Part shown: positions 23,799 to 34,885 of the stretch, piece after piece
Layout of the letters: each line of letters starts with the position of its first letter
How positions within the stretch are numbered: the stretch's first letter is position 1
Source of the DNA: Paracoccus sp. PAMC 22219
GTDB taxonomy: Bacteria; Pseudomonadota; Alphaproteobacteria; Rhodobacterales; Rhodobacteraceae
DNA: 64,000 nucleotides
Assembly (NCBI RefSeq): GCF_000787695.1
Contig: NZ_BBPH01000021.1
Span: forward strand, 1-64,000
Direction of reading: 5' to 3'
Position numbers and translations under genes: made by a program
Notes under the pieces: model-generated
What the model was told of the DNA's origin: nothing
The model's database searches: none
Seen by the model: the letters and a program-made list of their open reading frames with translations, nothing else

Positions 23799-23831
23799 CG
23801 CGATTGACGCAAGGGGGTGCCCGACCAACAA

Positions 23832-23881
23832 CTTGGATATGGAGCGCCGCGGGGGGAGGAAATCCGCGGCACTTATCCAAG
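23832..23881 (+). promoter_or_regulatory. Two-tier stem-loop in the 5' leader of xoxF
   Basis: Outer arms CTTGGATA (23832-23839) / TATCCAAG (23874-23881) enclose inner arms GCCGCGG (23846-23852) / CCGCGGC (23864-23870) around a purine-rich loop. The 3' outer arm ends directly at the ribosome binding site (GGAGCGGAGGAG, 23882-23893) of xoxF. The placement suggests a regulatory leader or mRNA-stabilising structure; whether it senses anything is unknown. Confidence 0.5.
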
Positions 23882-23899
23882 GGAGCGGAGGAGCACTCG

Positions 23900-25702
23900 A
23901 TGAAACATCTCTTGAACAGCGCGGCTATTGCGCTGCTTCTGACCGGCGCATCGGCTTACGCGAATGAAAGCGTCCTGACCGAAACCGCCGAAGCCGGGCA
24001 GTGGGCGATCCAGACCGGCGATTATGCCAACCAGCGGTATTCGGAACTGGACCAGATCACCCGCGAGAACGTGGGCGACCTGCGCGTCGCCTGGACATTC
24101 TCGACCGGCGTGCTGCGCGGACATGAGGGTGGCCCGCTGGTCGTGGACAACGTGATGTATGTCCACACGCCGTTCCCGAACAACATCTTTGCGCTGGACC
24201 TGAACGACAACGGCAAGATCCTGTGGCGGCACACGCCCCAGCAGGACCCCGAGGTCATCGCGGTCATGTGCTGCGACACCGTCTATCGCGGCCCGGCCTA
24301 TGCCGACGGGATGATCATCAGCCACCAGGCTGACACCACGCTGCTGGCGTTGGACGCCAAGACCGGCGAAGTCAAATGGTCGGTCAAGACCGGCGACCCG
24401 GCCATCGGCGAGACGAACACCGCCACCGTTATGCCCGTGGGCGACAAGGTGATCGTGGGCGTGTCGGGCGGCGAATACGGCGTGCGCGGCCGCATCACGG
24501 CCTATAACCTGGCCGACGGCACCGAGGCGTGGAAAGCCTATTCCACCGGCCCCGACGCAGAAATGCTGGTCGACCCCGAAACCACCATGCATCTGGGCAA
24601 GCCCATCGGTGCCGACAGCTCGCTGAATAGCTGGGAAGGCGATCAGTGGAAGATCGGCGGCGGTTCGACCTGGGGCTGGTATTCCTATGATCCGGACCTG
24701 AACCTGATCTATTACGGCACCGGCAACCCCTCGACCTGGAACCCGTCGCAGCGTCCGGGCGACAACCGCTGGTCCATGACCATCATGGCCCGCGACGCCG
24801 ATACCGGCATGGCCAAGTGGTTCTACCAGAAGACGCCCCATGACGAATGGGACTATGACGGCGTGAACGAGAACATCCTGGTCGACCAGGAGATCGACGG
24901 CCAGATGCGCAAGCTGCTGGTGAACTTCGACCGCAACGGTTTCGGCTATACGCTGGACCGCGAGACGGGCGAACTGCTGGTCGCCGAAAAGTTCGACCCG
25001 GCCGTCAACTGGGCGACCGAAGTCGACATGAACAAGGACTCGGAGACCTATGGTCGTCCGCTGGTCGTGTCGGAATTCTCGACCGCCCAGAACGGCGAGG
25101 ACACGAACACCACCGGCGTCTGCCCCGCGGCCCTTGGCACCAAGGACCAGCAGCCGGCGTCCTATTCGCCCAAGACCGGTCTGTTCTACGTGCCGACGAA
25201 CCACGTCTGCATGGACTATGAGCCCTTCCGTGTCGCCTACACCGCCGGCCAGCCTTATGTCGGCGCGACCCTGTCGATGTACCCGGCCCCCGAAAGCCAC
25301 GGCGGCATGGGCAACTTCATCGCCTGGGACGCCGTCGCGGGCGAGATCAAGTGGTCGCTGCCGGAACAGTTCTCTGTCTGGTCGGGCGCCCTGGCGACCG
25401 CGGGCGATGTGGTCTTCTACGGCACGCTGGAAGGTTACCTGAAGGCCGTCGACGCCGAAACGGGAGAGGAGCTGTACAGCTTCAAGACCCCGTCGGGCAT
25501 CATCGGCAACACGATGACCTACGAGAACAACGGCAAGCAATATGTCGCGGTTCTGTCGGGAGTCGGCGGATGGGCCGGGATCGGTCTGGCCGCGGGCCTG
25601 ACCAACCCCAATGACGGTCTGGGTGCCGTGGGCGGCTATGCGGCCCTCAGCGACTACACCGAACTGGGCGGTCAGCTGACCGTGTTCGAACTGCCGGACT
25701 GA
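23900..25702 (+). CDS. xoxF: XoxF, lanthanide-dependent PQQ methanol dehydrogenase
   Basis: 600 residues including a signal peptide (cleavage likely after GASAYA, near 21). Periplasmic PQQ enzyme oxidising methanol. Vicinal Cys124-Cys125 ([10 protein letters not shown]) forms the disulfide near PQQ. Metal ligands fit Glu192 (GGEYGVRG), Asn276 (GTGNPST) and catalytic Asp318 (DEWDYDGVN). Asp320, two residues on, is the known XoxF lanthanide signature where MxaF has Ala. The propeller's tryptophan-docking repeats (for example [17 protein letters not shown]) are present. The ATG at 23900 was chosen because it yields the signal peptide and follows a strong GGAG site. XoxG and XoxJ follow. The XoxF5 clade is likely but not proven. 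Confidence 0.97.
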
Positions 25703-25832: not shown

Positions 25833-26480
25833 ATGAAAGCCATCACCAGCCTCACGGCGCTGGTCCTGGGCGCATCCTTGGCCGGCATGGCCTGGGCGCA
25901 GACCGAAACGACGCCCCCGGCGGATGCGGGCGCTGGTGCGGCCGCCGCCGTGTCGGGCGATACCGCGGCCGAGGCACCGGCCGGCGCTGCCGCCGATCCG
26001 GCGGCCGAACCCACCGATACCGCCGCAGCGGGCGCCCATGTCCTGCCCAATGGCCAGGACATGACCGCCGTGACCGAGGTGGATGGCCGCTGGCGCAACG
26101 CCGAGGATATTCCGACCTTCAAGGTCGAGGACGGCGTCGTCGATTTCGCCACCTTCAATGGTTTCCGCCGTTATCACGCGGAATGCCATGTCTGCCATGG
26201 TCCCGACGGCGAGGGGTCGACCTATGCCCCCGCACTGAAGGAATCGGTGCTGCGCATGGATTACTACGACTTCATGCAGGTCGTGGCGTCCGGTCGGCAG
26301 GGGTCGAATTCCGTGATGCCCGCGTTCGGCACCAACAAGAACGTCTGGTGCTATATCGACGACATCTATGTCTATCTGCTGGCGCATGGCACCGACACGA
26401 TCGGTCGCGGCCGCCCGGCGGAACGCGCCGACAAGTCCGAGGACTATACCGCGCAGGAAGATTCCTGCATGTCCAGTTGA
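25833..26480 (+). CDS. xoxG: XoxG, cytochrome c553i-like electron acceptor of XoxF
   Basis: 215 residues. A signal peptide (MKAITSLTALVLGASLAGMA, cut after AWA) is followed by an Ala/Pro/Glu-rich linker at about 24-68, as known for Paracoccus c553i (CycB). The single haem site is C118-H-V-C121-H122 and the distal ligand is probably Met162 (SVMPAFG). It accepts electrons from XoxF in the periplasm and passes them to the oxidase chain. Two further Cys (VWCYIDD and EDSCMSS) might form a disulfide. GGGAGGA precedes the ATG. Confidence 0.94.
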   Translation: MKAITSLTALVLGASLAGMAWAQTETTPPADAGAGAAAAVSGDTAAEAPAGAAADPAAEPTDTAAAGAHVLPNGQDMTAVTEVDGRWRNAEDIPTFKVEDGVVDFATFNGFRRYHAECHVCHGPDGEGSTYAPALKESVLRMDYYDFMQVVASGRQGSNSVMPAFGTNKNVWCYIDDIYVYLLAHGTDTIGRGRPAERADKSEDYTAQEDSCMSS

Positions 26481-27298
26481 CGGTCCTGGGACGCCTTGCA
26501 GGACTGATGCTGGCTGCGGGGGTGCTGGCCACCCCCGCAGCCGCACAGGTGGCGGACCTGCGGTCCACCACCCAGTTCCGCGTCTGCGCCGACCCTGCCA
26601 ATTCCCCGATGTCCAGCCGCGACGGCAGCGGCTTCGAGAACACGCTGGCCGATTTCTTCGGCCAACAGCTGGGACTGCCGGTCACGTATTACTGGTTTCC
26701 ATCGGGCATGGGGTTCGTCCAGCGCACCTTGCGCGAGGGGAACTGCGACGTGGTGATCGGCTATGCCCAGGGGGACGAGCTGGTCCAGAACACCAACCAT
26801 TATTACACGTCGGTCTATGGCATCGTGACGCGCAAAGACGGGCCGCTGGCGCAGGTGGACCGGCTGACCGACCCGGCGTTAAAGGATCACGGCATCGGCG
26901 TGGTGGCGGGGACGCCGCCTGCCACGCATCTGGCCCGCGCAGGCCTGGCGCCCAACATGCGCGGCGTCGATCTGTTCGTCGACCGCCGGGTCGAGGATCC
27001 GATGGGGGATCTGCTGGACGATGTCCGCAGCGGAGAGACGGGCGCCGCCGTGCTGTGGGGACCGCTGGCCGGGCCGCGCGTCAAGGACGACCCGGACCTG
27101 CAGTTCGTGCCGCTGCTGCACGAAGAGGCCTCGCCGCGGCTGTTCTTCCGCATCACCATGGGCGTGCGCCCCGAGGAGCAGGAATGGAAGCGCGACCTGA
27201 ACAGCATGATCCGGCGCAATCAGGACGGCATCAACCAGATCCTGCACGAGGCCGGCGTCCCGCTGGTCGACGACTATGGCAAGGAAGTGCTGCCGTGA
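26477..27298 (+). CDS. xoxJ: XoxJ, periplasmic binding protein-like factor of the XoxF system
   Basis: 273 residues with the solute-binding-protein type 3 fold: STTQFRVCADPANSPMSS, FENTLADFFGQQLGL, YYWFPSGMGFVQRTL, GNCDVVIGYAQGDE. XoxJ proteins are thought to help activate or mature XoxF. I place the start at the TTG at 26477, overlapping the xoxG stop by 4 bases, because it gives a full signal peptide with a basic n-region (MTVLGRLAGLMLAAGVLA, cut after AAA). The first ATG at 26507 would leave no positive charge. Its stop overlaps the next gene's GTG. Confidence 0.9.
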   Translation: MTVLGRLAGLMLAAGVLATPAAAQVADLRSTTQFRVCADPANSPMSSRDGSGFENTLADFFGQQLGLPVTYYWFPSGMGFVQRTLREGNCDVVIGYAQGDELVQNTNHYYTSVYGIVTRKDGPLAQVDRLTDPALKDHGIGVVAGTPPATHLARAGLAPNMRGVDLFVDRRVEDPMGDLLDDVRSGETGAAVLWGPLAGPRVKDDPDLQFVPLLHEEASPRLFFRITMGVRPEEQEWKRDLNSMIRRNQDGINQILHEAGVPLVDDYGKEVLP

Positions 27299-27825
27299 TC
27301 CGGCTGCTGGTGCTGGCGCTGTTGCTGGCACCCGCAGCGCGGGCCGAAAGCGTGCCCGAACCCGATACCTATCGGGGCGAGCCCTATCGCGGGGCCGTGC
27401 CTGCGACGCTGGCGGGGGCGCAGGTCGTCGACGTGGATCAGGCCATCGCCCTTCAGGGTCAGGCGGCGTTTCTGGACGTTCTGCCGCGGCCCAAGGCCAA
27501 GCCCGCGGGTCTGCCCGAAGGCACGATCTGGAACGAACCCCCGCACCGCTCGATTCCCGGTGCGGTTTGGTTGTGGGACACCGGCTATCAGGCGCTGTCC
27601 CCCGCCGAAGAAACGCGCCTGCGCGACGGTCTGACCCAAGCCAAGGCCGGCGACCCGACCCGGCCCGTGGTGATCTTCTGTCGCGCCGATTGCTGGATGA
27701 GCTGGAATGCCGCGCGGCGGGCGATCGAATGGGGGTTCGACCCGGTGATCTGGTTTCCCGGCGGCACGGATGCCTGGGAACAGGCCGGTCAGCCCCTTGT
27801 CACGGTGGACCCTGTCGCCCCGTAA
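27295..27825 (+). CDS. Rhodanese-like protein of the PQQ-dependent catabolism-associated CXXCW family
   Basis: 176 residues starting at the GTG at 27295, which overlaps the xoxJ stop by 4 bases. A signal peptide (IRLLVLALLLAPAARA) is followed by a rhodanese-like domain with VVIFCRADCWMSWNAARRA. The CRADCW motif, two Cys and a Trp, defines a family that co-occurs with PQQ alcohol dehydrogenases and is suggested to bind a redox cofactor. WFPGGTDAWEQAGQPL near the end is the usual rhodanese close. It probably ends the xoxF-G-J operon and overlaps the convergent beta-propeller gene by 26 bases. Confidence 0.88.
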   Translation: MIRLLVLALLLAPAARAESVPEPDTYRGEPYRGAVPATLAGAQVVDVDQAIALQGQAAFLDVLPRPKAKPAGLPEGTIWNEPPHRSIPGAVWLWDTGYQALSPAEETRLRDGLTQAKAGDPTRPVVIFCRADCWMSWNAARRAIEWGFDPVIWFPGGTDAWEQAGQPLVTVDPVAP

Positions 27826-28726
27826 AGCTGCCGAAGGCGCGCGGGCCTGACGGCATGTCGATCGTGCGTGTCACCGCCAGCGTCGTGGCATCCAGCACCA
27901 CCAATGTGTCTGAATCCCAGTTTGCCACCGCCACCCCGCTGCCGTCGGGCAAGGGCGCGATGCCTTCGGGATAGTCGCCCACCGGAACGGTTGCGACGGG
28001 GGCCAGCGTGGCGGCGTCGAACACGGTGACGGTGCCGTCATACTGGTCGGTGACGAACCCCCGCCCTGCGGCAAAGGCCACGGCATAGGGGTGGCTGCCG
28101 GTCGGAACCTGACCCGTCAGGCGCCCCGCGACCGGATCGATGACCGACACCACGTCGCCCTGCACATCGGCCGAAAACAGCCGCCCGTCATGGAACGTCA
28201 CGCCAAAGGGATGCGCCCCCGCCGTGGCCACGCGATGCAACAGCGCGCCGGTCGCGGCGTCGAAAATACTGACCTGATCCGCATCCCGGTCGGCGGTCGC
28301 AACCAGGCCTTGGCCGTCGATGGCCACGCCTGCGGGCGCGGCCCCGGTCGGCGCGGTCCAGACCGGCTGCAGATCGGCGTCCAGCCGCGTCAGGCGCGCG
28401 CCGTACCAGTCCGTGACGAACACGCCGCCATCGCCTGCGGCCAGCCCGAATGCCCCGGCGCCCAGGTCGCGATGGGTCAAGGGCTGGGCGTCTTCGTCCA
28501 GCACGTGCAGGCGACCGGTATCGGCGGCGATGACATAGACGCGCCCGGCCTGTGGGTCATAGGCCACAGGGGCAGGCGCGTCCGGAATGTCGGCCTCTGC
28601 CACGATGGTTCCGGTTTCCAGATCGACCACCGACAGCGCATCGCCATTCTGCGAGGTCACGAACGCAAGATCCCCGGCCTGGACCGGGGACCCTGTCAGC
28701 AACAGCACCAGAAACGGGCGCAGCAC
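27800..28726 (-). CDS. Secreted YVTN-type beta-propeller protein
   Basis: 308 residues from a GTG at 28726. A signal peptide (MLRPFLVLLLTGSPVQA) precedes repeated blades such as LAFVTSQNGDALSVVDLETG, VYVIAADTGRLHVLDED and GRGFVTDQYDGTVTVFDAAT. Proteins of this type recur around PQQ alcohol dehydrogenases and their transporters; the molecular role is not established. It follows the SRPBCC gene directly with no gap, so the three minus-strand genes (DUF3280, SRPBCC, propeller) form an operon. It is a distant relative of the propeller at 31143. Confidence 0.85.
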   Translation of the reverse strand: MLRPFLVLLLTGSPVQAGDLAFVTSQNGDALSVVDLETGTIVAEADIPDAPAPVAYDPQAGRVYVIAADTGRLHVLDEDAQPLTHRDLGAGAFGLAAGDGGVFVTDWYGARLTRLDADLQPVWTAPTGAAPAGVAIDGQGLVATADRDADQVSIFDAATGALLHRVATAGAHPFGVTFHDGRLFSADVQGDVVSVIDPVAGRLTGQVPTGSHPYAVAFAAGRGFVTDQYDGTVTVFDAATLAPVATVPVGDYPEGIAPLPDGSGVAVANWDSDTLVVLDATTLAVTRTIDMPSGPRAFGSFTGRQGPP

Positions 28727-29284
28727 CTATTCGACGCGGCCGAAACGCTCGGCCAGCGCATCCAGACCGGCCTGATAGACGCCGTCGACGGCGGCGATGG
28801 CTGCGTCGTCGTTCAGTTCCGCCGGGGGTTCATTGTTCGGGAAACCGCGGTAAAATCCGCCCTTCCACAGGACCTCGGCCTTGCCGTCCTTGTCGCTGAC
28901 CTGCAGCGTCGAGGAATAGTTGGTCACCGGCAGGACGGCGGTGTCCACCTCGGTGATCATGTATTTGTAGCTCATCTTGTCGTTGTCGATGGCCATCAGT
29001 TGTTCGGTGATCGTGGGCGCGCCATCGCCGTTCAGCGTCAGCACGCGGGTCGATTCGTCGGGAACATCCGCGGCGGCCCCTTCCGGCGTCATCGCGGTCG
29101 AGGCGATCACCGGGTGCCAGCTCATGTCGTCGAAACGACCGATCACCTCCCATACCTCGGCAGGGGTGGCGTCCAGCGTCACGGTCTGTTCGGTCTTCAG
29201 GCGCGACGGGCCATGCGCCCCCGCCATCCCCGTCAAGGCCAGCACCGCACCAAGCGCGCCAGCCAGAACTGTCGTCGTCCTCAT
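28727..29284 (-). CDS. Secreted SRPBCC-family protein
   Basis: 185 residues. A signal peptide (MRTTTVLAGALGAVLALTGMAGA) precedes a START-like/polyketide-cyclase domain: TVTLDATPAEVWEVIGRFDDMSWHPVIASTAM, LNGDGAPTITEQLM, SYKYMITEVDTAVLPVTNYSSTLQV. SRPBCC proteins bind hydrophobic ligands in a deep cavity. A periplasmic version within a PQQ/lanthanide cluster suggests handling of a small cofactor or metallophore, but this is inference. It overlaps the DUF3280 gene by 4 bases. Confidence 0.82.
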   Translation of the reverse strand: MRTTTVLAGALGAVLALTGMAGAHGPSRLKTEQTVTLDATPAEVWEVIGRFDDMSWHPVIASTAMTPEGAAADVPDESTRVLTLNGDGAPTITEQLMAIDNDKMSYKYMITEVDTAVLPVTNYSSTLQVSDKDGKAEVLWKGGFYRGFPNNEPPAELNDDAAIAAVDGVYQAGLDALAERFGRVE

Positions 29285-29787: not shown

Positions 29788-29868
29788 CCCCCGACCATGC
29801 GCCGGGGTCGCCCACGCGTCCATTAAGACAAAAGGTGCAACCGCCCCCGACTTTGGGTTGAGGGAAAA

Positions 29869-29889
29869 GTTCCCGCACGAAACGGGAAC
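29869..29889. promoter_or_regulatory. Inverted repeat in the divergent promoter region, candidate operator
   Basis: GTTCCCG (29869-29875), 7-base spacer, CGGGAAC (29883-29889): a perfect dyad with 21-bp span, centred between the DUF3280 operon and the transporter operon. The geometry suits a dimeric regulator controlling both directions. Confidence 0.6.
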
Positions 29890-29947
29890 AATAACCGGGT
29901 TGCCGCATCCCGAATCGCCCCGCACCATGCCGTCAGGGAGAGACGAA

Positions 29948-31134
29948 ATGTTCAAGGGAATCATAGGACTTTTGGCTGGTGCCGTGGCACTGGCCCAGCC
30001 CGCTGCGGCCCAGGCACCTGAACCGGTGCAGATCCGCGCCGCGGTCCTGCGGGTCGACGACCCCGGTCTGCCGCCGATCTCGCGGCTGGATCTGCCGCCC
30101 GCCGATCTGGGATTCGCGGGCGCCGCCTGGCGATCGAGGACAACGACACGACCGGCCGCTTCATGGGCCAGGACTTCGAGGCCGAGGAGGTGGCCGCCAC
30201 CCCCGAAACCGCGGAGGCCGAGATGGCCCGCCTGCTGGACGACGGGGTGCAGTTCATCGTCCTGTTGGCCGATGACGCGACGACCCTGACGCTGGCCGAT
30301 CAGGCGGGCGACCGGGCGATGGTCTTCAACGCGATGGCGCGCGGCGACAACCTGCGCGGAGCCGATTGCCGGTTCAACACCATCCACGTCGCGCCAAGCC
30401 GCGCCATGATGACCGATGCCCTGACGCAATTCCTGATGTGGAAGAACTGGCCCCGCTGGTTCCTGATTCACGGCAGCCACCCCGAGGACCAGGCCCTGGC
30501 CCAGGCCTGGCGGACCAGCGCCGCCAAGTTCGGCGCCCAGATCGTCGAGGAGCGTGAATACACCGACACCGGCGGCGCACGCCGCACCGACAGCGGCCAT
30601 GTACAGGTCCAGGCGCAGATGCCCGTCTTCACCCAACGCGCCGCCGAACATGACGTCGTCATCACCGCCGACGAGGCCGACGTCTTTGCCGCCTACCTGC
30701 CCTATTTGACTTGGGACGCGCGCCCGGTCGCGGGGTCCGCCGGGCTGGTCCCGCGCAGCTGGCACCCCGCGATGGAGGCCTGGGGCGGCACCCAGTTCCA
30801 GAACCGCTTTGAAAAGCTGGCCGCCCGCCCGATCCGCGAGGAGGACTATCAGACCTGGCTGTCGCTGCGCATCGTCGGAGAGGCGGCGACCCGCACGAAT
30901 TCCGGCGATCCCGCCGCGCTCAAGGACTTCATCCTGTCCCCCGATTTCGACGTGGCGGGATTCAAGGGCCAGGCCCTGACGGTGCGCGACTGGGACCACC
31001 AGGTGCGCCAGCCGATCCTGCTGACCACCGGCGTGCTGACCACCTCGGTCAGTCCGCAGGACCAGTATCTGCACCAGACCAGCCAGCTGGACACGCTGGG
31101 CATCGACCGCCCCGAAACCCAATGTCAATTCTGA
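29948..31134 (+). CDS. ABC transporter substrate-binding protein, PQQ-alcohol-dehydrogenase-associated, LutA-like (frameshifted as read)
   Basis: 395 residues after repair. A signal peptide (MFKGIIGLLAGAVALAQPAAA) is followed by a type 1 periplasmic binding fold: LAIEDNDTTGRFMGQDFEAE, VQFIVLLADDATTLTLAD, FNTIHVAPSRAMMTDALTQF, WPRWFLIHGSHPEDQALA. One C is missing at about 30123 (ggcgccgcc for ggcgcccgcc), joining LGFAGA to RLAIEDN. This binding-protein family occurs with PQQ alcohol dehydrogenases, and its relative LutA is part of the lanthanide uptake system of Methylorubrum. Lanthanide (or lanthanide-chelate) transport is inferred from XoxF next door. Confidence 0.85.
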
Positions 31135-32114: not shown

Positions 32115-32152
32115 TCCGGCATCCCTGCACATTCCTGAGGAGGAGACTTTCC

Positions 32153-32749
32153 ATGACCACGCTGACGAAACTGATGTCCGGCGCCGCGCTGGCCCTGATC
32201 CTGGCGGTGCCCGCCGTGGCCCAGGACGCCGCCGCCGAACAGGTCCCGGGTGGCGATGCCGTCGTGGGCGAACCGGCCGAGGCAGGCACCCAATCGGGCG
32301 AGGCCGTCGAGGCGGATGACGATGATGACGAGGAGGAGGAGGCCGCAAGCGATGGCGTCTTTGAGGCGTCGGGCATGCACGAATATGGCTTTTCCGGCCT
32401 TCTGGCCCGCGAGAACCGTACTGACCTGGCACCCCTGACCCTGGCATCCGGACAGCCGGTCGCGGGTGGGGAATATACGATCAAGTCGGGCGGCTACTAT
32501 CGCATCAACATCGTGGCTGATGGCAGCCAGGAGCTGGCCCTGTCGGGCGGCGATTTCTTCCGCGCGATCTGGATCAACGAGATCGTCATCGGCGACACCG
32601 AGATCCGGCCAATGGGCGTGCACAGCATCGAATTCGATGCCGACGGCACGGCGGTCCTCAGCTTTGTCGCGGTGCTGCCCGGTCGATATACCTTGTCAGT
32701 GCCAGGCTCTTCGGGCGACAGTCTGCAAGCCGTCTTCAACATCCAGTAG
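32153..32749 (+). CDS. Secreted acidic protein with nine-residue Asp/Glu run and cupredoxin-like C-terminal domain, unknown function
   Basis: 198 residues. A signal peptide (cut after VPAVAQ, near 24) precedes a low-complexity acidic region with D55-D59 and E60-E63 in a row. A beta-rich domain follows at about 75-198 (YTIKSGGYYRINIVADGSQ, FRAIWINEIVIGDTEIRPM, VLPGRYTLSVPG). The C-terminal part resembles cupredoxin-like beta sandwiches, but the protein has no Cys and only two His (76, 157), so a copper site is unlikely. It sits within the transporter operon next to XoxF, so a role in binding lanthanide or calcium ions in the periplasm is a reasonable guess. I cannot name a family. Confidence 0.75.
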   Translation: MTTLTKLMSGAALALILAVPAVAQDAAAEQVPGGDAVVGEPAEAGTQSGEAVEADDDDDEEEEAASDGVFEASGMHEYGFSGLLARENRTDLAPLTLASGQPVAGGEYTIKSGGYYRINIVADGSQELALSGGDFFRAIWINEIVIGDTEIRPMGVHSIEFDADGTAVLSFVAVLPGRYTLSVPGSSGDSLQAVFNIQ

Positions 32750-32755
32750 GGTTCA

Positions 32756-33477
32756 TTGACCGCCGCGTTGCAGATCGACCATGTCAGCCACAATTTCGGT
32801 GCCGTGCAGGCGCTGGACGATGTGTCACTGACGGTGCCGCGCGGCGGGTTCACCGCCCTTCTGGGGGTGAACGGTGCGGGCAAGACCACGCTGTTCTCTC
32901 TGGTCACGCGGCTTTACAACAACCGATCCGGGACGATCCGGGTGGCGGGGCACGACCTGCGGCGCGAACCGTCGCAGGCGCTGGCCCGTCTGGGGGTGGT
33001 GTTCCAAAGCCGTGCGATGGATGCCGACCTGACGGTCCGCCAGAACCTGATCTATCACGCCAGCCTGCACGGGATCCCGGGCCGCCTGGCGCGGCCGCGC
33101 ATCGACCAGGTCCTGGACCAGGTCGATCTGGCCGACAAGGCCGATGCCCGCGTCACCGCCCTGTCCGGCGGCCAGTCCCGACGGGCCGAGATCGCGCGCG
33201 CCTGATCCACAGCCCCGACCTGCTGCTGCTGGACGAGGCGACGGTGGGGCTCGACGTCAAGTCGCGGGCCGAGGTGCTGGCCCTGACCCGCCGCCTGATC
33301 GCCCGGGACGGCGTGTCCGCCCTATGGGCCACCCATATCATGGACGAGATCGACCCCGCAGACGACCTGGTGATCCTGCATAGCGGCCGGGTGCTGCGCG
33401 ACGGTCGCGCCGCCGACATCGCGGGACCGCACGGGCTGACGCGTGCCTTCCTGGACCTGACCGGAGTCGCGCCATGA
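32756..33477 (+). CDS. ABC transporter ATP-binding protein, PQQ-alcohol-dehydrogenase-associated, LutE-like (frameshifted as read)
   Basis: 240 residues after repair, starting at the TTG at 32756. Walker A GVNGAGKTTLFSLV, the Q-loop region GVVFQSRAMDADLTV, signature LSGGQSRRAEIARAL, Walker B LLLLDEATVGLD and the switch His in WATHIMDEID are all visible. One C is missing at 33201-33202 (gcgcctgatc for gcgccctgatc), in the middle of IARALIHSPDLLL. It overlaps the permease by 4 bases. It energises the transporter whose binding protein is encoded at 29948. Confidence 0.92.
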
Positions 33478-34298
33478 CCGCACCCACCGACCGCGCCCGC
33501 GGCTGGCTGACCGCGTTTCTGGGCATCGCCCGGCGAGAAACGCTGCGGTTCGTCAACCAGCGCGGGCGGTTCCTGGCGGCCCTTGTGCGCCCGCTGGTCT
33601 GGCTGTTCATCTTTGCTGCCGGATTCCGCGCCGTGCTGGGCCTGTCGATCACGCCGCCCTATCAGACCTATGTGCTGTACGAGGTCTACGTGACGCCCGG
33701 CCTGGTCGCGATGATCCAGCTGTTCAACGGGATGCAGTCGTCGTTGTCGATGGTCTATGACCGGGAAACCGGGGCGATGCGCACGCTGCTGGTCAGCCCG
33801 TTCCCGCGTTGGTACCTGCTGGGGTCCAAGCTGATCGCGGGGGTGATCGTGTCGATCATCCAGGTCTTCACCTTTCTGGCCATCGCGTATTGGTGGGGCA
33901 TCCGCCCGCCGGGTTGGGGCTATGTCACCGTCATTCCCGCGCTGATCCTGTCGGGGCTGATGCTGGGCGCGATGGGGCTCTTCCTGTCCAGCGCCATACG
34001 CCAGCTGGAGAATTTCGCGGGCGTCATGAACTTCGTGATCTTCCCGATGTTCTTTGCGTCATCCGCGCTGTACCCGCTGTGGCGCATGCGCGAAAGCAGC
34101 CCGCTGCTGCACGACATCTGCGCCTTCAATCCCTTCACCCACGCGGTCGAGCTGATCCGCTTTGCGCTGTACATGCAGGTGAACTGGACGGCGCTGGCGG
34201 TGGTCCTAGGATGTTTGGCGGGGTTCTTTGGCGCGGCGGTCTTCATGTATGATCCACAAAAGGGCCTGTGGGCCCGACGGAAGGGAGGTCCCGCATGA
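33474..34298 (+). CDS. ABC-2-type transporter permease, PQQ-alcohol-dehydrogenase-associated, LutF-like
   Basis: 274 residues with six hydrophobic segments, including LVRPLVWLFIFAAGFRAVLGL, LIAGVIVSIIQVFTFLAIAYW, VIPALILSGLMLGAMGLFLSS and ALAVVLGCLAGFFGAAVFMY. Motifs of the ABC-2 permease fold (SMVYDRETGAMRTLLVSPFPRWYLLGSK; NPFTHAVELIRFALY) are clear. It pairs with the ATPase upstream. ABC-2 permeases are usually exporters, which is odd for a system with a binding protein; the direction of transport is therefore uncertain. Confidence 0.9.
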   Translation: MTAPTDRARGWLTAFLGIARRETLRFVNQRGRFLAALVRPLVWLFIFAAGFRAVLGLSITPPYQTYVLYEVYVTPGLVAMIQLFNGMQSSLSMVYDRETGAMRTLLVSPFPRWYLLGSKLIAGVIVSIIQVFTFLAIAYWWGIRPPGWGYVTVIPALILSGLMLGAMGLFLSSAIRQLENFAGVMNFVIFPMFFASSALYPLWRMRESSPLLHDICAFNPFTHAVELIRFALYMQVNWTALAVVLGCLAGFFGAAVFMYDPQKGLWARRKGGPA

Positions 34299-34885
34299 TC
34301 CGCATCGCCTTGGCCCTGACACTGCTGGCCGGTCCCGCCTTCGGCGCCGCAGGCATCGATCCGGACTGGCCCTGCATCCAGCGCAAGCAGCCGCATCTGT
34401 CGATGGGCCAGGTCTGGACCGGCCCGATCCCCGACGAGGACACGCTGGCCCTGGCCCGCGACCCCGACATCGCCCGCCTGGCCGAACGCCTGGAACAGCG
34501 CCGCCTGCCGGTCGAGGAGGCAGAGGTGGAAATCGCCGAATTCGGCGCCCAGGCCCCCGACACGCATCTGGTGGCGCTGATGCAGGCGATCTTCGACCGC
34601 ATCGACACCGACCGCAGCGCGCTGATCGCGGGCATCGCGCGATACGGCCAGTCGCAACTGGACCTGTCCGAACGGATCGAGGAACGCCGCGCCCGCATGG
34701 CCGAGATGGAGGCCGCCGACAGCCCCGATTTCGACGCCATCGACGCCGAGGAAAAGGCCCTGGACTGGGATCAGCGCATCTTTACCGAACGCCAGCAGTC
34801 GCTGACCTATGTCTGCGAGACGCCGGTGATCCTGGAACAGCGGGTCTTCACCCTGGGCCGCGCCATCGCGGGTCAGCTGGACTAG
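34295..34885 (+). CDS. Secreted helical protein of unknown function, last gene of the PQQ/lut-like transporter operon
   Basis: 196 residues. A signal peptide (MIRIALALTLLAGPAFG) is followed by a mostly alpha-helical, charged protein with WPCIQRKQPHLSMGQVWTGP, an acidic/basic coiled-coil-like stretch (IEERRARMAEMEAADSPDF) and a C-terminal TYVCETPVILEQRVFTLGR. Cys near 27 and 173 could form a disulfide. The ATG overlaps the permease stop. An exported protein at this position also occurs in the Methylorubrum lut operon (lutG), but I cannot claim homology from the sequence alone. Its stop codon shares the palindrome CTAG with the convergent glycosyltransferase gene. Confidence 0.75.
   Translation: MIRIALALTLLAGPAFGAAGIDPDWPCIQRKQPHLSMGQVWTGPIPDEDTLALARDPDIARLAERLEQRRLPVEEAEVEIAEFGAQAPDTHLVALMQAIFDRIDTDRSALIAGIARYGQSQLDLSERIEERRARMAEMEAADSPDFDAIDAEEKALDWDQRIFTERQQSLTYVCETPVILEQRVFTLGRAIAGQLD

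Follow-up and report, generated by a model that had tools for sequence, protein, structure and literature searches.

A LutC counterpart with a cupredoxin fold, a lost copper site and an acidic tail in the lut/xox locus of a Paracoccus genome

What is the function of a small exported protein with nine consecutive acidic residues that is encoded between a beta-propeller and an ABC ATPase, in a locus that also encodes a XoxF-type dehydrogenase? This question is raised by the first 64,000 nucleotides of contig NZ_BBPH01000021.1 of Paracoccus sp. PAMC 22219, a stretch referred to here as the window. A preliminary description of the gene, made from the letters alone, saw in the acidic run a possible periplasmic carrier of lanthanides or calcium. 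Here, we describe a comparative and structural analysis of this protein, its relatives and the genes that surround them.

The cluster includes, on the plus strand, xoxF (23804..25702), identified by NCBIfam and by alignment, which carries the lanthanide-type motif WDYD and whose open reading frame may start too far upstream. It is followed by genes for a xoxG-like cytochrome (25833..26480, +; TIGR03874) and a xoxJ-like binding protein (26480..27298, +), the latter named by position and giving a weak, below cut-off match to SBP_bac_3. Divergent from its surroundings, a segment within the cluster (27800-29284, -) encodes a second YVTN propeller and an MxaD-like SRPBCC protein, both of which recur in several of the loci assigned below to group I. 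The lut genes comprise homologues of lutA (substrate-binding protein, TIGR03863; 30163..31134, +), lutB (YVTN beta-propeller, TIGR03866; 31122..32114, +), lutE (ABC ATPase, TIGR03864; 32756..33473, +) and lutF (ABC-2 type permease, TIGR03861 and Pfam; 33474..34298, +), and a gene for a lutG-like exported protein (34295..34885, +) with 35-40% identity to the gene that follows lutF in four Methylobacterium-like loci (L081, L106, L107, L108). The NCBIfam names in the locus include methanol/ethanol PQQ dehydrogenase, methanol-related cytochrome and PQQ-ABC substrate-binding protein. The target gene lies between lutB and lutE, so that its placement between propeller and ATPase in a XoxF/lut locus, as first described, is confirmed by TIGR03866 upstream and TIGR03864 downstream.

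Two genes of the operon have broken frames. That of lutE breaks near 33200, with the remainder in another frame, whereas five near relatives are open over 240-244 codons; the break is either a sequencing error or real, and because of it the TIGR03864 match is partial and below cut-off. In the lutA region (29858-31134, +) the signal-peptide-like N-terminal part apparently precedes 30163 in a different frame, and TIGR03863 matches from profile position 31 onwards. That one operon has two such breaks points to a draft prone to errors. LutF belongs to the exporter-like ABC-2 type (PF01061), with DrrB one of its NCBIfam matches, yet the system has been described as an importer.

The target gene (32153..32749, +), preceded by a purine-rich, Shine-Dalgarno-like stretch read from the sequence (32137..32146, +), translates into 198 amino acids with no internal stop. 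Its N-terminus, judged by eye, is a Sec-type signal peptide, MTTLTKLMSGAALALILAVPAVAQ (residues 1-24; 32153..32224, +), with the cut placed, also by eye, after AVAQ, in agreement with the export predicted earlier. Residues 25-75 (32225..32377, +) form an acidic tail with 18 Asp or Glu, no Lys or Arg and no Cys. Within it lies the run DDDDDEEEE (D55-E63; 32315..32341, +), present just as the preliminary description had it and the sole Asp/Glu run of three or more in the protein. A search of the 4.01 Mb genome on both strands for the corresponding nine-codon pattern (GAN repeated) gave the target itself as its only match, and the pattern read backwards gave none. Of 60 LutC relatives, 10 have a run of at least five acidic residues in the 45 positions that follow the cut, as against 0 of 632 other predicted secreted proteins from 100 loci, a count that uses a crude secretion rule, leaves out the window copy and includes relatives that are not independent. 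Such a tail is thus no general habit of secreted proteins in these neighbourhoods. The target has no Pfam match at E <= 1, to PepSY or any other domain, nor has it a D.[DN].[DN]G loop, which upholds the earlier remark that EF-hands are missing. Neither the target nor the lutG-like gene product belongs to a Pfam or NCBIfam family.

The remainder of the protein, residues 76-198 (32378..32746, +), is a cupredoxin-fold core with no Cys, two His and one Met. From residue 91 on, an AlphaFold model built with 21 sequences reached block mean pLDDT values of 85-96; in the tail, which is modelled as disordered, they were 41-55. Foldseek and VIA-align matched the model in the PDB to copper nitrite reductases, laccases and AcoP with Z about 10, the best match having a Z of 10.8 and an rmsd of 2.9 over 108 residues; a PDB search with the target sequence found nothing. 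The cupredoxin-like domain suspected earlier is thus supported. The link to copper proteins is also visible in sequence profiles: the most distant profile matches, L075-L077, retain the His, Cys-His-Met pattern of copper cupredoxins, hhalign scored these ligand-bearing cupredoxins against the LutC profile at 97%, and the Pfam cupredoxin cut-off is passed by one of the three and by one distant LutC-like protein. In the alignment that includes them (A4), the first copper His corresponds to L128 of the target, the Cys to a two-residue gap, the second His to S186 and the Met to L191. The His-Cys-His-Met ligands are thus absent, and neither the mature part (residues 25-198) nor the signal peptide contains a Cys, so the statement that this cannot be a normal copper protein stands. 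Two Methylobacterium-like LutCs in the same alignment keep only the Met. We considered a soft-to-hard ligand switch in which the invariant Glu127 replaces the first copper His, and dropped it when A4 placed the His at L128. A number of LutCs without an acidic tail (L084, L086, L133, L146 and others) have two Cys in a short stretch preceding the core, as in APLCDDLGFAGLLAACNRG of L084, where a disulfide is possible.

The family of the protein, for which the preliminary description had proposed a profile search and structure prediction, emerged from both: it is a LutC counterpart of cupredoxin fold that has no Pfam or NCBIfam name. In four of four Methylobacterium-like loci the order is lutB, cupredoxin, small exported protein, lutE, lutF, lutG; lutA lies just upstream of the propeller gene in three of the four genomes, with no match in L108, and a lanM-like gene adjoins the cluster in two of them. 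The genus of these genomes is very likely Methylobacterium. Their cupredoxin-type proteins have 141-145 residues and the small exported proteins 80-94; two of the cupredoxins share 30 and 34% identity with the target, and a profile of the target's family (A1) finds all four at E values from 1e-22 to 4e-25. For Methylorubrum extorquens AM1, the accessible portions of published work name the YVTN propeller LutB (PMC9291206), the lanthanide-binding protein p1781 LutD and p1782 LutE (PMC7391723, PMC9260416; naming also in PMC10848612). Gene order and this naming together make the Methylobacterium-like cupredoxin LutC and the small protein LutD; the tag of AM1 LutC, META1p1780, was deduced from those of its neighbours. 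By order and sequence, then, the target is the counterpart of LutC, the link to AM1 being transferred from related genomes, and it is no novel stand-alone protein. An AM1 lutC mutant is reported, in the text available, to have a 9 h lag and a growth rate of 0.11 per hour, a small growth defect with lanthanum (PMC7391723). The PedA1A2BC system of Pseudomonas putida is described in the available part of its report as four genes, LutC not among them (PMC6839425). Together with the five LutB-bearing genomes without LutC noted below, this indicates that LutC is not essential to such systems.

The distribution of LutC follows that of the propeller. Among 149 genomes of the family, 41 match the LutC profile at E <= 0.01, and 39 of these matches are strong; the two weak matches (G065 and G017, E about 0.007-0.008), both from genomes without LutB, were dropped. 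TIGR03866 scores above its cut-off in 44 of the 149. All 39 genomes with a strong LutC have LutB and none of the 105 without LutB has a strong LutC (Fisher p 9e-31, kinship not corrected), leaving five of the 44 LutB genomes without LutC (G006, G042, G111, G113, G117). The genome collection supplied 21 named loci with relatives, and a search at the level of the class found a profile match in 26 of 385 genomes. Profile A1 was made from 39 loci chosen out of 51; L033, which has no start codon, was excluded from A1 and A2 and is included in the tail, tree and slot counts. LutC adjoins LutB, LutE or LutF in most loci, and in L122 it stands apart from LutA/LutB together with LutE/LutF. Homologues outside lanthanide/PQQ loci, which the preliminary description had named as evidence against its idea, are accordingly rare, and the association with such loci holds apart from a few copies located at a distance from lut genes (L044, L094, L110). 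The PQQ-associated family PF23509 matches one of 39 LutC members, with a best E of 0.049. A LutH search of the window genome, run with no positive control, was empty. In the openly accessible literature, for the most part listings, we found no statement on the fold or function of LutC, its acidic tail or the pattern of genes that follow it.

Identity among the relatives spans residues from about 76 on, and the tail is not common to most of them. A run of at least four acidic residues is present in 27 of 70 distinct LutC sequences, the window copy included, and missing from the other 43. The other part of the earlier test, homologues that lack the run, thus went against the idea that the run is what the protein is for: with so many such homologues, the run cannot account for what the LutC family does in common. 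Loci were divided by the identity of their LutB to that of the window into group I (over 60%) and group II (under 60%), with seven of the 70 ungrouped because no LutB lay in the stretch; L143 was counted in group II, although its LutC looks like that of group I and its LutB lies about 6 kb away. The tailed sequences occupy two main parts of the tree, with nine group I rows from Paracoccus and the window's genus and 17 of the 28 in group II, to which L044 is added, while the remaining 26 group I sequences have no run of four. Paracoccus itself includes untailed members, namely the MAG L039 and Paracoccus alcaliphilus (L187). The longest runs in the 27 tailed sequences vary from 4 to 12 residues, and the tails vary freely in sequence and length.

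The tail does not follow the metal type of the neighbouring dehydrogenase. The window enzyme aligns best with the lanthanide enzyme 6OC5 (XoxF), and its WDYD falls at the place of Asp318 and Asp320, the ligands given for solved XoxF1 in the accessible text of PMC11845868. The lanthanide-type D-x-D was found in 52 of 52 dehydrogenases from 50 stretches with LutB or LutC (36 with a close LutC, 4 with a distant one, 10 with LutB only). It was also found in all 17 genomes picked because they hold a group II cluster only, each of which gave a single match at E <= 1e-60. In these 17 (G005, G031, G038 and 14 others) the dehydrogenase has 34-38% identity to the window XoxF. A pairing of the group II clusters, with their acidic LutCs, with calcium-type dehydrogenases was entertained and rejected, as it rested on ARDADTG being taken for the D-x-D. 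Counting from the metal-ligand Asn, together with the XoxF1 ligands and the 6OC5 alignment, fixes the motif as WD[YF]D instead. Since the D-x-D occurs beside both groups, the tail tracks lineage within lanthanide loci and not a division between lanthanide and calcium enzymes.

The tail was also compared with the slot between lutC and lutE. We scanned 75 loci, of which 54 have LutE downstream; the other 21, with no LutE within 1.8 kb, were set aside. Among the 54, a small exported protein follows LutC in 0 of 24 tailed and 13 of 30 untailed loci (Fisher p 2e-4), and the gap before LutE in the tailed loci is at most 100 bases, so that all 24 slots are empty. Of the 13 slot proteins, nine are PepSY-like (net charge -8 to -20) and four are of the LutD type (net 0 to -2), the first 20 residues being left out of the charges; the Methylobacterium-like LutD, which is not net acidic, and the PepSY-like protein have no recognisable kinship, and both points weigh against a common role in the slot. 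In P. alcaliphilus, whose LutC is untailed, the protein between LutC and the ATPase is annotated as having a PepSY domain. Pfam PepSY_2 scored above its cut-off for one of seven PepSY-like proteins, below it for five, and did not match one. In 17 of the 30 loci with an untailed LutC the slot gene is missing as well, so neither tail nor slot protein can be required. The 21 loci set aside include eight with a homologue of the small protein, all untailed, and 13 without, three of them tailed.

The same relationship is seen across whole genomes. Strong PepSY-like matches occur in 12 of the 149 family genomes, all with LutC: 12 of the 22 whose LutC is untailed have one, against 0 of the 17 whose LutC is tailed (Fisher p 2e-4, kinship uncorrected). 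G139, with one copy of each kind, was counted as tailed. Weak PepSY matches in G078, G083 and G101 were not counted as strong; that of the tailed G078 (E 2e-10) lies elsewhere in its genome. When the tree was taken into account, only four supported independent pairs differed in the tail and the slot gene differed in a median of one of these, in the sense opposite to the tail, which is not significant; the mutual exclusion of tail and slot gene therefore depends on few lineages, too few for this test to confirm it. The window genome has no PepSY-like protein and no LutD at E <= 0.01 in searches that detected LutD in four of four and PepSY in three of three positive genomes, all of them sources of the query rows or near kin. 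In G088 the PepSY-like gene precedes LutC rather than trailing it. In G071 (L110, 8895-9601) a lutC-PepSY pair is found by itself, with lutB about 106 kb away, an arrangement that suggests joint working of the two proteins.

These observations lead us to favour, with about even confidence, an explanation in which the target is LutC, a periplasmic accessory that has lost its copper site, and in which an added tail gathers lanthanides and replaces the LutD or PepSY-like slot protein. LutC would serve the LutA/LutB/LutE/LutF system that feeds the XoxF-type dehydrogenase, and its former copper core would now most likely bind to LutB, LutA or the permease. The tail, an added disordered acidic stretch seen in Paracoccus and in a second group made up mostly of Rhodobacteraceae, would most likely gather cations in the periplasm; in this reading it hands lanthanide ions on, taking over what elsewhere falls to LutD or to the PepSY-like protein, whose gene sits between lutC and lutE. 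Lanthanide binding by LutC, replacement of the slot protein by the tail and docking of the core on LutB or LutA are the parts of this scheme that we infer. Because the tail is present where the slot protein is missing, it may still be a metal-binding add-on in a family that has no conserved acidic run. P. putida, according to the available part of its description, manages with PedA1A2BC (PMC6839425), which would make LutC a modulator of the system rather than its central component. A stronger form of the proposal makes the tail a grafted lanthanide-binding module that on two or more occasions replaced a separate binder, with LutC docking whichever binder its lineage has; this seems to us somewhat doubtful.

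The alternative that survives best holds that the tail is an unspecific acidic extension, acting in solubility, spacing or electrostatic steering, and that only the cupredoxin core matters. We consider this a genuine possibility that falls short of being probable. The free variation of the tail in sequence and length, its modelled disorder and the 43 of 70 sequences without a run of four are what such an extension would produce, as is the tree, on which the tail label changes 11 times, at least four of the changes being forced by the starred branches. However, an unspecific extension sits poorly with the absence of runs of five or more from the 632 other predicted secreted neighbours, and no tailed LutC was found beside a slot gene.

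A metal site might instead lie in the core, which would bind a hard cation through the conserved carboxylates E127, E150, E160 and D162, the tail being secondary. All four are invariant in a 39-row alignment and E150 is nearly so in the wider A4; E127, however, adjoins the first copper His position and does not occupy it, and we regard a carboxylate site read from these alignments as unlikely. The idea of the preliminary description, a stand-alone lanthanide or calcium carrier with the acidic run as binding site and main function, draws on the lanthanide locus and on a run that occurs once in this genome, but it has become improbable now that most relatives in equivalent loci are found to consist of a conserved cupredoxin core without the run. 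NosDFY/NosL is a mechanochemical metal-insertion machine for nitrous oxide reductase. By analogy, LutA-LutB-LutC-LutE-LutF could be an insertion machine for XoxF instead of an importer, with LutC as periplasmic chaperone, as the exporter-like ABC-2 type of LutF (PF01061, DrrB) would allow, but this is very unlikely given the growth defects of lutE/lutF and pedA1A2BC mutants, which the accessible parts of the reports present as loss of import (PMC7391723, PMC6839425).

Returning to the explanation that we favour, an accessory LutC with a metal-gathering tail, its closest known parallel is LutC of M. extorquens AM1, which likewise has its place after the LutB propeller and ahead of the LutE ATPase and, judged from Methylobacterium-like genomes, would be exported and have a homologous cupredoxin-type core. 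The Methylobacterium-like LutC differs in that it has no acidic run and is followed by LutD, whereas the window copy has the run. Type 1 cupredoxins (PF13473; AcoP and the domains of CuNIR and laccase) share the fold at Z about 10 but keep the copper ligands, where the target has L128, a gap at the Cys, S186 and L191. The fold and the lost copper site thus give LutC a shape, and the comparison of slots gives it a testable role. The PepSY-like slot protein of Rhodobacteraceae lut loci (for example WP_090610568.1 of Paracoccus alcaliphilus) is comparable in being small, secreted, very acidic and encoded in the same operon; it differs in being a distinct protein without homology to the tail and found only beside run-less LutC in the loci examined. 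The published LanPepSY, a possible relative of the slot protein, belongs to the same comparison. Should the tail bind lanthanides, nature would have supplied a rare-earth-binding peptide that is very short and simple to make, and an exchange of tail and slot protein would bear on how metal passes from a periplasmic binder to the ABC transporter and XoxF, an open question of lanthanide biology. Lanmodulin, finally, is likewise periplasmic, acidic and part of a lanthanide locus, but it binds through EF-hand loops, of which the target has none, and no Pfam domain relates the two. If the reading of the tail as a grafted module were true, a plain run of Asp and Glu would be a further periplasmic solution to handling lanthanides, beside EF-hands and PepSY domains.
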